A stretch of 32,683 nucleotides of DNA, taken from the NCBI GenBank assembly GCA_903958085.1, contig CAJBRY010000134.1, forward strand, positions 1 to 32,683. The letters run 5' to 3'. Source of the stretch: an uncultured Geobacteraceae bacterium (lineage in GTDB: Bacteria; Desulfobacterota; Desulfuromonadia; Geobacterales; Pseudopelobacteraceae). The notes under the pieces were generated by a model. The model was not told the origin of the DNA, made no database searches, and saw nothing but the letters and a program-made list of their open reading frames with translations. Shown piece after piece: positions 14,192-22,137 of this stretch (position 1 is its first letter; each line of letters begins with the position of its first letter). Both the position numbers and the translations under genes were made by a program.

Positions 14192-15049
14192 CTAAACAAC
14201 CTCTAAAAACCCCAGTTTCAGTCTCATAATCTTGGTCAGTATCTCATCAGACCTGTCATGGCTACGTGCGTTCCCGGCCATATCCTGCACAAGGCGATAA
14301 CGCTGCTGATCTGCTGTTTCAGCTTCAAGAATTTCCAAAATAGCTGTTCCGGTCGCTTCATCCGCTATAGCCGCCATGTCACGTCCAAGCAATCTGATAC
14401 CAGCCAGGACAAGATCAAAACCCTCCATCTGAAGCAGTTCAACCTCATTATCAAACATGCGGTCTTCGTTACCAGCCTCTGCGTAATGTTCCATAAAAAA
14501 CAGCAAATCCTCTGCATCCTTTGAGCGCAGCGGATATCGGTCATTCCAGGAGATAATCTTCATCAATGCCATACCCGGAATGGTCGGTACTTTCACATCC
14601 AGCACTGGAGCGTCACTCAAACGGACATTCATTCCATATTGATATGCTTCCTTGAAGCCCATGATGTTCATGATAACCTGCTGGTCGGGTGGCCAGCTGA
14701 TAGTTTTGCCTTCGGGACTGACATCACCAAACGGTACAATATCGACAGGAAATCTCCCGAACTTCAGCCGGTACGGTTCTTTTGTCGCCTCAAATCGTCC
14801 GGTAGCGACCAATGCTTTTGATAGCTGCTGGAATTCATCCCAGCCGTCAACCTCAACTCCGATATCGAGATCACGGGTGGCTCGATTCGTTTTGATGGCG
14901 TGACAATGGTTCAATACGATATCGCGAGCCGTTGCACCGACTACAAAGAAGAGAATCCCAAGAGCTGTAGCCTCCTGATGAATCACCTTCAGAATATCCA
15001 GAATTACCGGATCAATCTTCTCTGATAAGTTGAACGATATGTTCGTCAT
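14192..15049 (-). CDS. Nucleotidyltransferase of the AbiEii / type IV TA toxin superfamily (start at internal Met preferred over 15070)
   Basis: FFVVGATARDIVLNH...RATRDLDIGVEVDGWDEF (NTase G[GA]xxRD...DxD pattern), VDIVPFGDV; immediately downstream of an AbiEi-like gene with overlapping ends. Confidence 0.8.
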   Translation of the reverse strand: MTNISFNLSEKIDPVILDILKVIHQEATALGILFFVVGATARDIVLNHCHAIKTNRATRDLDIGVEVDGWDEFQQLSKALVATGRFEATKEPYRLKFGRFPVDIVPFGDVSPEGKTISWPPDQQVIMNIMGFKEAYQYGMNVRLSDAPVLDVKVPTIPGMALMKIISWNDRYPLRSKDAEDLLFFMEHYAEAGNEDRMFDNEVELLQMEGFDLVLAGIRLLGRDMAAIADEATGTAILEILEAETADQQRYRLVQDMAGNARSHDRSDEILTKIMRLKLGFLEVV

Positions 15050-16040
15050 AGAGTATCCGTGCTGTTTCAATATTTCGCTGGTTTCCGGTGGCCATCAGGT
15101 CTGCATAAACCAGTACCGGGTGAACTGTCTCCCCATGCGGAACAATCGTATCCGGTTGCCAGAATCGCTGGAGCAGTTCCACATCACCTTCAGGATCTTT
15201 CTTGAGCCTGTTCTGGATAAGCACAGCCCCTTGTTTATCCTTATCAACATAGACGGTTATGGTCTGCGGTTTCAGATAGTCAGTCAGCTTTTCTGCTGCG
15301 ACCTCGCCACCCCATTGTGCATTTTCCGGATTCAGTGCCGCCTTCTGCCACCATCCATCCGCACCACGATAACGCCCGATCAGCAATTTCGGGCGCAACT
15401 GCTCGGCGTAGCCGGTTATCCAGCGTTCCATCAGTTTTTCTTTCTCTATCAATTGAATATGTCGAGCGCGGCCTTTGCCGGTCTCTACCAGGTAGCCAAG
15501 TTCGTTCAGCTCATTCAGTACCCAGTTCACCATGCCCAAGGCAACATTGGTTTTGGCTGCAATGACACGATAGGTTTCATTCTCCAGTCCAGGATTGCAG
15601 AGCAGGGCATAGAGAACACGTAGCCCGGTTTGCTTGAAGGCACGGCCAACAACAGGTACTTTTACTATTCCCTGAATCTTGTTGCCTTTGATGAAGAGAT
15701 ACAGTGGCGGCTGGTTTATAAAACAATTACCAGCGGTGTCCATAAACTGGATATTTTCGGTACGCAGCCTGTCGGCCATATCTGCCGTTACCTGCGGGAT
15801 TATCATTACACAGCGGGTCTGGTTTTTCAGTCGCCTGTACAAACCAAGCGCGGCATTGACCGCTACAGCGCCACCCTCGATAATCAGCAACTCAAGCTTA
15901 GCTGTTGCTTCCGGTGCTTTCAGGAGCAAGAACTGCTTGTCTGGTGCAATTTCAGGCACCTGACCGGTCTGTTGCGTAAAAGCAGCGAGAGCTGTTTTTA
16001 GAATATGTTTCTGGTTGTTCGTTGTTTGCATGTAGCTCAC
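15012..16040 (-). CDS. Type IV toxin-antitoxin AbiEi-family antitoxin/transcriptional regulator-like protein
   Basis: Winged-helix region TGLRVLYALLCNPGLENETYRVIAAKTNVALGMVNWVLNELNELGYLVETGKGR; C-terminal VHPVLVYADLMATGNQRNIETARILYDEHI; paired with the NTase. Confidence 0.8.
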   Translation of the reverse strand: MSYMQTTNNQKHILKTALAAFTQQTGQVPEIAPDKQFLLLKAPEATAKLELLIIEGGAVAVNAALGLYRRLKNQTRCVMIIPQVTADMADRLRTENIQFMDTAGNCFINQPPLYLFIKGNKIQGIVKVPVVGRAFKQTGLRVLYALLCNPGLENETYRVIAAKTNVALGMVNWVLNELNELGYLVETGKGRARHIQLIEKEKLMERWITGYAEQLRPKLLIGRYRGADGWWQKAALNPENAQWGGEVAAEKLTDYLKPQTITVYVDKDKQGAVLIQNRLKKDPEGDVELLQRFWQPDTIVPHGETVHPVLVYADLMATGNQRNIETARILYDEHIVQLIRED

Positions 16041-16139: not shown

Positions 16140-16397
16140 TTACAAATAATTCGCGACAGCAACTTTCATTTCATTTAGGACTTTTTCCCGTAACCACTCC
16201 GGCTCCAATACCTCCACATGCGAACCATGCTTCAGTATCTCCATCATGATCTCGGCTTCGTGCGAGGCTGGATCAGATTTGAATTTGAATATTCTTAGCA
16301 GAATATGGTCGTAATAACCATTGGAAATGCTTCTCATTAAAGCGTTACACACGATTTGATATGAATCATTCAGGAACTTTTCTCGTATGCAGCCCAT
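16140..16397 (-). pseudogene. Remnant of a WYL-domain transcriptional regulator (C-terminal part)
   Basis: SHEAEIMMEILKHGSHVEVLEPEWLREKVLNEMKVAVANYL aligns with SHHAEIMMQVLGHGSHVTVVEPEWLRKMVADEVGKMANSYN of the intact regulator at 21172-22137; no helix-turn-helix or N-terminal region present. Confidence 0.8.
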
Positions 16398-17221
16398 CCC
16401 GCCTTAAAGGTGGTATCGTGAAGCTCAAGCAGCTTACTGATATTTCCCTCTTCATCCACCTGATAGCCACCTGCCAGACTGACACAAACCTTCAGCCCCA
16501 GCTGTTTGGCAGCTTTAAAAACCAGCCGGTCACGCAAAGTCATTTGCCGAGTGTTGAGAATACCTCCAAGTGGATCTTCAATATGAGGGTCAACTCCGGC
16601 ATTGAAAATCAGAAGATCTACTCATCTGAATGAGCTGACAATATCGGGCAGTCGCATAAGCCAATCTTCTGCATCACTACCCCGTTTTAGAAATTCCTCC
16701 CCGAAACTGTAATGCCGAATATAGTTAAGTCCCAATCGCTCGATAATATTCACCGTGCCGTTGCCATGATGACAATCAAGATCGAGGATGCCTATTGTAT
16801 CAGCACCTGCCTGATGCACTTTAATAGCAGCCATGGCCAGAAAATTGAAAGAGCAGTAACACATGCCATGAGCATAGCAGGCATGATGTGCTCCTGATGT
16901 TGGGCTGAAGGAAAGCTCGCCTGTTATGTACGTGTGAAGTGCTGCCGCCACCATACTGCCGCATACCCAGGGGAGCGCTGCTGCTATTTCCGGGTTTTGA
17001 TTACCAAAACCGTTCAGCTCTTCCAGAGACATGATGCCATCAACGTAGAAGCGGTCATGAGCCAGTGCCATCTCATCGATAGTTAGCGGCTTGAATGAGC
17101 AGACTTCAAAAGGAATGTCGAGCTTATGCCAACTTTCCAGAACCTTGGCCGGCTTTTCGGCCGACGGACTGAAAGAACTGTTGGCCGCTACTGATTGACG
17201 ATCATCGTAGAATACTTTCAT
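16370..17221 (-). CDS. Histone deacetylase / acetoin utilization-like deacetylase with in-frame TGA at 16622-16624 (nonsense-mutated pseudogene or candidate recoded gene)
   Basis: N-terminal ORF contains SPTSGAHHACYAHGMCYCSFNF and ILDLDCHHGNGT. After TGA the same frame continues VDLLIFNAGVDPHIEDPLGGILNTRQMTLRDRLVFKAAKQLGLKVCVSLAGGYQVDEEGNISKLLELHDTTFKAGWAAYEKSS*, restoring the AGxDxH and GGY motifs. Confidence 0.82.
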
Positions 17222-17278: not shown

Positions 17279-17457
17279 TTATCCCAATGCTTCACCATCG
17301 AGCCATTCCTTTAAAACCAACTCCATAGTATCAAGATTGAGAGCCACCAGCTTGCCAACATGAGGGGGCTCTTCCTGGTAATAAGCATCGTTATCAATCC
17401 GAATATGTGGGGTTGTGAAGCTTTTCCTGAAATGTCACCGATTGCGTATCGAGTCAC
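17279..17457 (-). pseudogene. Internally deleted remnant of a PPP-type serine/threonine phosphatase gene, paralogous to 18870-19883
   Basis: Minus-strand reading starts GTG VTRYAIGDI (intact paralog MSRYAIGDI), then after a deletion/frame change TPHIRIDNDAYYQEEPPHVGKLVALNLDTMELVLKEWLDGEALG* (intact paralog QPHIQIDNGAFINQPPDFGYLVALNLDAMELIFQKWIDEEAVL). Confidence 0.85.
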
Positions 17458-17517: not shown

Positions 17518-18702
17518 TCATTCCCCAGCTGCCTTCAGGTTGTAGACCGGCTTCAACTTGTCAGTAACTGTGACCGTCTCCAATAGGTACTTTTCAATTT
17601 CAGCCGGGTCTTTGTAGGCGAACTTGCTTTCGTCAAAAGTCTCACGGTTGATAGAGGTGGAGAAAATCCCCTGCATGGACTTACTAAAATCAGCCAAGCT
17701 GTACTCGCCCTTATCCAATTTACGAAACATCTCCTTACGGCTGCTCTTTCGTCCTGCCCCGTGAGGAGCGGACTTGTTGTAGCTGTTATTGCCCTTGCCA
17801 ATGCCGATAATGATGCCGTCAGACATATTGAAAGGAATAATCACCTGTTCTCCTTCATGTGCAGAGATGGCACCCTTGCGGATAACTTGATCTTTTTTAG
17901 CGATATAGTTGTGTACGCTTTCAATGACCTGGCTTTCGTCGAACCGAAGCCCGAAAAACTCCAGAATGGTTGCCAGCATGAAGCGCCGGTTGTAGCGGGC
18001 ATAAGCCTGAGCAATAGTTGCCCAGTGCATATAGCGTTCACCACCGGCCGCGAGTGGAAGGTATTCCATCCCTTTTGGTACGCTCATTCCCATTTGTTTT
18101 GTTATGCTTGCGGCCATTTCCTGAAAATGTTCCGCTATCCGCTTACCCAGATTGCGAGAACCTGAATGAACAATCAGACGGTAACTAGCATCATTTTCAG
18201 ACTGACCTATCTCAATGAAATGATTGCCACCACCGAGAGTTCCAAGCTGCATAAGAGGGGGAAGGTGTCTACCAATCTTTTCGCCCTTATAAAAGTCATC
18301 TTCAGTATGTTCGCAGAGTGAATTTGCCGCCTTGCGTAGTGTATCGGGAACCGGCACCTTGTCAAAGAAGCTTGACTCTTCCCTCTGATTCATGCCGAGC
18401 GGAATTCGCTCACGGATGAACTGATCCAACCCCTGGAAATCTATTTTCTGTATTCCGGAAAGTGGGACGGATGCCACACCACAACCAATATCAACACCGA
18501 CAATATTCGGAATGACCGCCTGACGGAATTTGCCGGTAAATCCGATGACACAGCCAGCTCCAGCGTGGGCGTCGGGCATGATGGATATAAGGCCGTGCAA
18601 CGCATGGTGGTGGGCAATCAGCTTTACCTGTTCGGTGGCAATTGGGTCCAGACTGTCAGCGTGTATCTGAACCGGGCATTCATTTTTCTGTACGTTGAAC
18701 AT
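17518..18702 (-). CDS. rtcB: RNA-splicing ligase RtcB family protein
   Basis: MPDAHAGAGCVIGFTG, VGVDIGCGVASV, LGTLGGGNHFIEI, HSGSRNLGKRIAEHF, PHGAGRKSSRKEM: diagnostic RtcB motifs. Confidence 0.95.
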   Translation of the reverse strand: MFNVQKNECPVQIHADSLDPIATEQVKLIAHHHALHGLISIMPDAHAGAGCVIGFTGKFRQAVIPNIVGVDIGCGVASVPLSGIQKIDFQGLDQFIRERIPLGMNQREESSFFDKVPVPDTLRKAANSLCEHTEDDFYKGEKIGRHLPPLMQLGTLGGGNHFIEIGQSENDASYRLIVHSGSRNLGKRIAEHFQEMAASITKQMGMSVPKGMEYLPLAAGGERYMHWATIAQAYARYNRRFMLATILEFFGLRFDESQVIESVHNYIAKKDQVIRKGAISAHEGEQVIIPFNMSDGIIIGIGKGNNSYNKSAPHGAGRKSSRKEMFRKLDKGEYSLADFSKSMQGIFSTSINRETFDESKFAYKDPAEIEKYLLETVTVTDKLKPVYNLKAAGE

Positions 18703-18869: not shown

Positions 18870-19883
18870 CTACTGTTTATGTTTGAATTTGTAAGCCCGT
18901 TTGATCAGGACATTGACCAGGGCTGAGTTAAAGATTTTCTTTCGGTCGAGGTCAGGTGATACCATCTTGTCAAATTCCAGCTGAGCCTCTTCGATTTTGT
19001 CATGCAGCAAGTCAAAGATATTGTCCTCGTTGATCCCCTGATCGACCAACTCCGGAAAATACTGCCCGATATCGTCCATCATCACCCGTGCAAGACGGCT
19101 TGCTTTGGATTCGTCTGTTATGAGATTCATGATCATATCCTCCTTGATAGTCGGCACGGTTTCCGGTGCCAGAGCAAAGCTCACATTATTCTTACATACA
19201 GAGAGCACGGCTTCTTCATCGATCCACTTTTGGAAGATCAACTCCATAGCGTCCAGATTAAGTGCCACCAGGTACCCAAAGTCCGGCGGCTGGTTGATGA
19301 ATGCGCCGTTATCGATCTGAATATGCGGCTGATCCAATGACTCCTTGATGTAACCGGCATTCTTTATCCGGTGGCCGCTAACGATTATTCTCCCAGGTAT
19401 TTCGTTGTTACTGATGAAACCGCCATCGCCCCAGAGCATTGTTTCCGGAGTGGTTTCAGTCACTGGGTTGTCCTTGTTCATATCAAGCCCGGCATGAACG
19501 AAGATGAATCTGCCATCTTCAAGTATATATGGCAGTCCGATGAGGAATTCCTTGTAACGATCCGGCAGTTCAGCGGGTGTTTCGATCCCGAAGCTCCGTA
19601 ACGTGACGGCCCCATAATCCTTAACGTATCCTGGAAAAGGCTTTTCACGAATATCAAAATGACTGATAAGCATGTCTTCGTGGTTACCGCGTAAAGGACG
19701 TATATCGAAACCGACATCAATCAATTTAAGAATGATATCCAAGACCCCCTTGCTGTTCGGACCTCGATCCACATAATCACCCAGAAGGTAGATCCGGTCA
19801 TCACGCTTCATATCGAGACGTTCCAGTAATGCACGAAACGTCTTTGCTCCGCCGTGTATATCACCTATGGCATACCTGCTCAT
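18870..19883 (-). CDS. PPP-family metallophosphatase (serine/threonine phosphatase-like)
   Basis: MSRYAIGDIHGGAKTF, LLGDYVDRGPNSKG, LRGNHEDML, FVHAGLDM, VSGHRI: GDxHG, GDxxDRG and GNHE motifs. Confidence 0.92.
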   Translation of the reverse strand: MSRYAIGDIHGGAKTFRALLERLDMKRDDRIYLLGDYVDRGPNSKGVLDIILKLIDVGFDIRPLRGNHEDMLISHFDIREKPFPGYVKDYGAVTLRSFGIETPAELPDRYKEFLIGLPYILEDGRFIFVHAGLDMNKDNPVTETTPETMLWGDGGFISNNEIPGRIIVSGHRIKNAGYIKESLDQPHIQIDNGAFINQPPDFGYLVALNLDAMELIFQKWIDEEAVLSVCKNNVSFALAPETVPTIKEDMIMNLITDESKASRLARVMMDDIGQYFPELVDQGINEDNIFDLLHDKIEEAQLEFDKMVSPDLDRKKIFNSALVNVLIKRAYKFKHKQ

Positions 19884-19904: not shown

Positions 19905-20642
19905 TTAAATCCTGTAGTCCGGCTTGGCAATTACCAGATCCGCCTTTGAAATTCCAGCCGGTTGTGATGGAAGATGCGTAATCTCTGTAATGCCTGCATC
20001 TCTCAATACTGTCCAGGTGAAGTCCTTCTCGATGATGGTTCGTTTTGTAGCAATCACCTTGTCACCCACGACCATAAATCCGAAACTCAGCGAACCGAGC
20101 TGCATTCTAGGGCGGGGCTCCATGCCGATTACCGGATATAGAGTGATGTTCGACTCCTTGGAGGCTGTTTGCAGGGCTTTGACAAATGCCACCAGCATTG
20201 CTGTGGCACCTTTTCCGAACTGATAGTCGTAAACTCCTGTATATGAAGAAATGTCTTCCTTTGTCTCCTTACCGCCAGGCTTCGGGAATATGAATAATGA
20301 AATGCCGACTTCAAAGCGATCACCCTTATCCCGCAGATAGGGAAACGGTATAAGCAGCCCATCGAAAGAGTTCTTGAGATAGTGGGGTATCGCAATACTG
20401 GTGAGGATTATGTTTACCTCCATCGCCGCATTAACCTGATCACGGTTGCAATCTGGCGGCTGCAGCTTGATGCCCATGACCTCGACTTCGTCGCACTGCA
20501 TTACCAGGCCATATTCAAGCGAATTGTTCTCGGATTTCAGTCCGACGATTCCATACGGCATCAGATCCCGTATTTCCTGAAACAGTTCACTTTCTACGGG
20601 AACAAGATGAACATCACCTTTCGGTGTAGTTATGATTTGCAT
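19905..20642 (-). CDS. Conserved hypothetical protein, RtcB-locus associated
   Basis: 245-aa ORF, ATG start, spacing consistent with the RtcB-phosphatase operon; no family recognised. Confidence 0.7.
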   Translation of the reverse strand: MQIITTPKGDVHLVPVESELFQEIRDLMPYGIVGLKSENNSLEYGLVMQCDEVEVMGIKLQPPDCNRDQVNAAMEVNIILTSIAIPHYLKNSFDGLLIPFPYLRDKGDRFEVGISLFIFPKPGGKETKEDISSYTGVYDYQFGKGATAMLVAFVKALQTASKESNITLYPVIGMEPRPRMQLGSLSFGFMVVGDKVIATKRTIIEKDFTWTVLRDAGITEITHLPSQPAGISKADLVIAKPDYRI

Positions 20643-20656
20643 AAACCCTCCCTAAA

Positions 20657-21031
20657 TCAGCAGATAGCTCCAGTGTCAGTAGCAGTAATTTTACCGTCCT
20701 TGCATTTTGGACAACGTTTCCCGACAGATTCCTTAATTGACTTTACCTTCTCGCTTCCGCATTTTTCACAGACTCTAGTATCTCGTTCGAGATCAAGCGA
20801 AAACTGGTGAAGACAATCGGAACAATAGCAATTGCTCAGGAAGCCAGTACGGTTCATACATTCTTCATGGGTGGCATCTTGCCCAATAACACTATAGACT
20901 GTGTACATTTCTCCAGGATGTGAACAAATAATTCGTTTGCCGTCATCGTCAGTGACATACATGATTCCACCCCATCCACCGGGAAGTCTGAAATCACATT
21001 TGTTGCATCCAAATTGATAAATCTTCGGCAC
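20657..21031 (-). CDS. Small multi-zinc-ribbon protein
   Basis: Repeated Cys pairs: CNKC, CYCSDC, CEKC, CPKC in 124 aa; first gene of the minus-strand operon, divergent from the WYL regulator. Confidence 0.75.
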   Translation of the reverse strand: MPKIYQFGCNKCDFRLPGGWGGIMYVTDDDGKRIICSHPGEMYTVYSVIGQDATHEECMNRTGFLSNCYCSDCLHQFSLDLERDTRVCEKCGSEKVKSIKESVGKRCPKCKDGKITATDTGAIC

Positions 21032-21171: not shown

Positions 21172-22137
21172 ATGGCAGATCAACTATTTTTCGAGCGTTT
21201 TATCTGGTTTGATGCGCAGGTCAGAAAGGGCAGGCACCCAAGTGCTGCAAAGTTGGCAGAGCAGTTTGAGATATCCGGCAAGACGGCGCAACGCAGCATC
21301 GAATATTTTAGAGACCGTCTTAACGCCCCACTCGAATATGATTCATCTCTAAAGGGCTATTATTACGTTGATAATAGCTTTGAACTGCCTCTGATGAAGC
21401 TGTCTGAAGGGGAGCTGATGTCACTTCTGATTTCCCGCAAGTTATTGAGCGAAGCCTCGACAGGGAGACTGGGAGAAGAACTCGCCGCTGTAGCAAAGAA
21501 GCTTGGTGGTCTGCTCTCAGCGCACATGCCGGGCTCTGTTGATCCGGAGCAGGCGTTCTCATTCCGCTGGAATCAGTTTCATCCCAGTGACAGCATTAAT
21601 TTTAAGCAGGTATCAACCGCCCTCCTGAATAGTCGATGCCTTTCGATCTGCTATTATTCTCCCAACAGTTCAGAGTGCACTATGCGGACAATCGAGCCGC
21701 AGCATATGGTTAATTATATGGGGACATGGCATGTAATCGCCTGGTGCAGGATGAGAGGTGAATGGAGAGATTTTCTGCTGTCTAGGATGTCGATGGTGAT
21801 TGTGGATGATGAGCTATTCGTTCAGCATCCACAGCAGGAATGGAAACCGCATCTGACGGAGACATTCGGTATATTTCAGAATGCGGAATATTTTGATGTT
21901 ACTCTAAGATTTTCACCAGAGCGTGCAAAATGGGTGCGTGGGGAATTGTGGCATCCCGAACAGAAGGAAGAAATTCTGGATGACGGTTACTATCAATTGA
22001 CAGTGCCGGTGTCTCATCATGCGGAGATAATGATGCAGGTGCTAGGGCATGGATCTCATGTGACTGTTGTCGAACCTGAATGGCTCAGGAAAATGGTTGC
22101 CGATGAGGTCGGGAAAATGGCGAATTCATACAACTGA
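21172..22137 (+). CDS. WYL-domain HTH transcriptional regulator
   Basis: N-terminal HTH (RKGRHPSAAKLAEQFEISGKTAQRSIEYFRDRLNAPLEYDSSLKGYYY), central WYL-like MVNYMGTWHVIAWCRMRGEWRDFLLSRM, C-terminal WCX-like domain. Confidence 0.9.
   Translation: MADQLFFERFIWFDAQVRKGRHPSAAKLAEQFEISGKTAQRSIEYFRDRLNAPLEYDSSLKGYYYVDNSFELPLMKLSEGELMSLLISRKLLSEASTGRLGEELAAVAKKLGGLLSAHMPGSVDPEQAFSFRWNQFHPSDSINFKQVSTALLNSRCLSICYYSPNSSECTMRTIEPQHMVNYMGTWHVIAWCRMRGEWRDFLLSRMSMVIVDDELFVQHPQQEWKPHLTETFGIFQNAEYFDVTLRFSPERAKWVRGELWHPEQKEEILDDGYYQLTVPVSHHAEIMMQVLGHGSHVTVVEPEWLRKMVADEVGKMANSYN

Follow-up and report, generated by a model that had tools for sequence, protein, structure and literature searches.

An in-frame TGA in an HDAC-like gene beside rtcB in a Geobacteraceae genome is probably a very young nonsense mutation

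Does a single in-frame TGA within an otherwise uninterrupted HDAC-like gene mark a recoded codon, an error in the assembly, or a gene that has just been broken? The gene lies in a stretch of 32,683 nucleotides (the window, meaning the whole stretch of DNA analyzed) within contig 134 of an uncultured Geobacteraceae bacterium, whose genome assembly comprises 804 contigs and 4.5 Mb at 95.9% completeness and 3.65% contamination. A sequence-only reading had left nonsense mutation, sequencing error and recoding side by side. The features of the gene are as follows.

16370..17221, minus strand: HDAC-like gene (PF00850), 283 codons plus stop if read through, with one TGA inside (Pfam and homologue alignment)
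16622..16624, minus strand: the in-frame TGA, codon 200 (translation; homologues have GAT, AAT, GGA or GGG there)
16589..16591, minus strand: codon 211, Asp of GVDPH, the expected third metal ligand, 3' of the TGA (sequence; role from knowledge of HDACs)
16463..16465, minus strand: codon 253, Tyr of AGGY, the expected catalytic tyrosine, 3' of the TGA (sequence; role from knowledge of HDACs)

Translation of 17221-16370 yielded 284 codons, of which codon 200 is the sole internal TGA and the last, at 16372-16370, is the terminal TGA, confirming that the TGA at 16622-16624, where the open reading frame list closes the gene at 199 aa, is followed by 83 open codons. The tail does restore the GVDPH metal ligand and the GGY region, as the sequence-only reading had it, so that the read-through frame encodes the HH pair (112–113), DxDxH (147–151), GVDPH (211) and GGY (253). 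From established HDAC structures such as HDLP, we take Asp149, His151 and Asp211 to be the metal ligands, and His112/113 and Tyr253 to be catalytic; the Asp211 region aligns with GVDPH of the solved chain 9rje_A, the nearest by sequence. The read-through protein passes the PF00850 gathering cut-off and scores 85.5 bits, versus 58.9 bits for the 199-aa part, and the 83-codon tail alone matches the family (28.3 bits, cut-off 27.9). Since the homologues also align across the stop without a gap, the open frame beyond the TGA is not a product of chance. The gene thus resembles the bacterial HDAC-like amidohydrolases of the PF00850 superfamily in encoding the full active-site set (HH, DxH, D and Y), but differs from them in being split by a TGA, such that the last two active-site residues require readthrough. 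Asp211 and Tyr253 are both encoded after the stop and so missing from the 199-aa product, which should therefore be inactive. Two further accounts of the interruption were considered and rejected: translational restart at the overlapping ATGA enters a frame that closes after 11 codons, and a genome-wide reading of TGA as Trp conflicts with the use of TGA to terminate 8 of 24 window open reading frames of at least 150 aa, among them this gene in its 199-aa form.

Homologues (E ≤ 1e-20) were found in 10 of 140 other genomes of the order, nine of them full length, a distribution that marks the gene as dispensable. Cut or partial copies occur in further relatives (L022, L023), and a search of a plasmid collection returned distant partial matches only. 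The nearest homologue, at 85% amino acid identity, comes from a Geobacter metagenome-assembled genome (L002/L016). The TGA column sits in the stretch just ahead of the strand leading to the metal ligand, and the sequence-only reading had relatives often carrying Cys or Trp there. This did not hold: the nine full-length homologues have GAT, AAT, AAT, GAT, GAT, GAT, GGA, GGA and GGG (D, N, N, D, D, D, G, G and G), with neither Cys nor Trp among them and a stop in 0/9, so the TGA is confined to one genome. Three substitutions separate this codon from the GAT that the nearest homologue has, and one separates it from GGA, seen in distant homologues. A nonsense mutation starting from GAT therefore has to assume an unseen intermediate codon (e.g., GGA) or a small local indel pair, which counts against that reading.

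Insertion of selenocysteine at the UGA would leave the gene functional, and this possibility has in its favor that TGA is the right codon and that SelD is present in the source genome. Of the machinery proposed for checking (selA, selB, selC and selD), however, only SelD was detected. SelA was not found; the best tRNA-Sec matches in the source genome reached 40 bits or less (cut-off 47 bits), with ARAGORN identifying ordinary tRNAs at all eight candidate loci checked; and no SelB was found, the best match scoring 186 bits (cut-off 242), which is consistent with EF-Tu given that it adjoins a tRNA cluster. These searches have power, because SelB was found in 63 of 76 family genomes and tRNA-Sec was recovered at 71–76 bits in 6/6 SelB-bearing relatives checked, while being absent in 3/3 without SelB. 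In one relative (G026) selB and the tRNA-Sec gene are adjacent, so that one assembly gap could hide both; the gene context of selB differs among three relatives examined. No in-frame TGA occurs within the formate dehydrogenase matches of the source genome. SelD also serves selenouridine, and the source genome, with SelD but without SelA, SelB or tRNA-Sec, looks as if it had given up selenocysteine while still using selenium for tRNA.

The region following the TGA gave the same answer. The absence of a convincing bacterial SECIS, suspected from the sequence, was upheld: the minimum-energy fold was no stronger than those of shuffled sequences (z −1.18), lacked a G at either of the first two loop positions, and differed in the homologues folded, and the region has no Rfam match. 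The GATCTTC and GAAGATC words proposed to pair do exist, but they do not pair as a perfect stem in that fold. Compared with bacterial selenoproteins such as FdhA, the window gene shares the in-frame TGA but comes without detected machinery, a Cys homologue or a SECIS-like element. On the combined grounds of machinery, TGA column and structure, we rejected selenocysteine, which is effectively excluded.

We then considered what the intact tail says about the age of the stop. Relative to the nearest homologue (L016), dN was 0.090 before the TGA and 0.091 after it, with dS about 1.8–3, near saturation, in the regions flanking the TGA. The equal dN on either side indicates that the tail has been under the same selection as the 5' part for most of the divergence from L016. 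As a gauge of relaxed selection, amino acid changes could be polarized in very small numbers only: after the TGA, four fell on the window lineage and one on its sister, and before it, nine and ten. Separately, the first 28 HDAC codons (17138-17221; L002 2035-2118) show a dS to L002 of 0.40, versus about 3 for the whole pre-TGA region, possibly reflecting recombination or a constrained 5' end. In a simple simulation of a neutral 83-codon tail that assumed one indel per ten substitutions, the tail remained lesion-free with a probability of about 0.5 once 0.02 neutral changes per site had accumulated, falling to 0.05 at 0.1; the clean tail is thus explained by a young stop.

An intact and conserved tail is also what functional readthrough would leave, with near-cognate decoding of the UGA yielding a little full-length enzyme and selection still acting on the tail, and such cases have been argued to be common in bacteria (Belinky et al. 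2021, PMC7918605). The genes in that study share with ours a single in-frame stop and purifying selection on the tail, but the study focuses on in-frame stops common to several species, whereas the window stop is private to one genome. The low dN/dS consequently reflects the time before the stop arose, and tail conservation here indicates a young or leaky stop and is no evidence for readthrough, as proof of which we rejected it. As the TGA is found in no homologue and no outstanding structure lies downstream of it, we regard functional readthrough as decidedly improbable. A more specific version, in which the TGA is decoded at a low, possibly stress-dependent level to supply small amounts of full-length deacetylase beside the RNA-repair ligase, is very unlikely.

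The surroundings of the gene bear more directly on its fate. The decayed neighboring fragments reported from the sequence alone are real, and they flank the gene on both sides.

16146..16271, minus strand: WYL/WCX regulator remnant, C-terminal 42 of 321 residues (95% identity with the intact L008 gene; Pfam WCX 36.7 bits)
17285..17449, minus strand: second calcineurin-like phosphoesterase remnant, residues 173–226 of 337, interrupted by a stop of its own (49% identity with the intact window gene at 18870-19883)
17518..18702, minus strand: intact RtcB-type RNA ligase, upstream neighbor (PF01139, 192 bits)

The phosphoesterase scrap stands between rtcB and the HDAC-like gene and the WYL remnant is located downstream of the latter; both flanking genes have thus been reduced to fragments by deletion, which supports an incipient pseudogene. 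Upstream of rtcB are the intact calcineurin-like phosphoesterase (18870-19883), two genes without a Pfam match, and a divergent WYL regulator at 21172-22137. The two unmatched genes (245 and 124 aa) occupy 19905-21031, between the phosphoesterase and the regulator, and the 124-aa product has paired cysteines resembling a zinc ribbon. Only in the window, L002 and L008 is the HDAC-like gene linked to rtcB; among the remaining full-length homologues, those checked lie in unrelated neighborhoods. In L008/L065, from another genus of the same family, only 28 codons and a stop are left of the HDAC gene and rtcB carries a frameshift, while the WYL gene is whole. That frameshift falls near codon 262, beside the 28-codon HDAC gene (L008 578-1748; L065 8897-10067). 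The cassette is falling apart in different ways across lineages, circumstances under which a new nonsense mutation is to be expected.

Downstream of the HDAC-like gene is a two-gene unit (15012-16040 and 14192-15070; L008 6238-8077) that presumably resembles an AbiE-type toxin-antitoxin pair and shows 94% protein identity to L008. Its dS to L008 is 0.18–0.31, far below that of rtcB, which is much more diverged (dS of 1.4 or more); this difference suggests that the region 14192-16040 was recently exchanged by horizontal transfer.

The TGA could instead be an error in the consensus or a base from a minor strain, introduced by strain mixture or assembly, with the real gene intact. The fragmented, metagenome-type assembly and its contamination, together with the otherwise perfect condition of the gene, are compatible with such an artefact. 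Against it, all three codon positions differ from the nearest GAT, so a single miscall would not suffice, although the parent codon need not have been GAT; moreover, the neighboring genes are broken independently. We consider an artefact unlikely.

Among the three options first proposed, a very recent nonsense mutation is therefore the best supported, and the HDAC-like gene is probably an incipient pseudogene, broken by a very young nonsense mutation within an accessory cassette that is itself decaying. The gene has a disabling lesion relative to intact homologues, as expected of a pseudogene. Homologues have a sense codon at this position; counting against this reading, no second lesion lies within the gene. 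In the sequence of events we propose, a nonsense codon would have arisen very recently in an HDAC-like amidohydrolase gene, an accessory member of a cassette that contains rtcB; translation would end at residue 199, ahead of Asp211 and Tyr253, producing a truncated, inactive protein; and the frame past the stop would remain open because decay has not yet had time to set in. We infer that the population is fixed for the mutation and that the gene has lost its activity.

The stop codon in this HDAC-like gene is itself an ordinary one. A frame that stays open past a stop says little in favor of recoding, as over a short time a gene that has only just been broken is expected to keep a tail that looks perfect. 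Researchers studying RNA-repair cassettes may find the HDAC-like subfamily of interest, as well as its linkage to rtcB at three loci.
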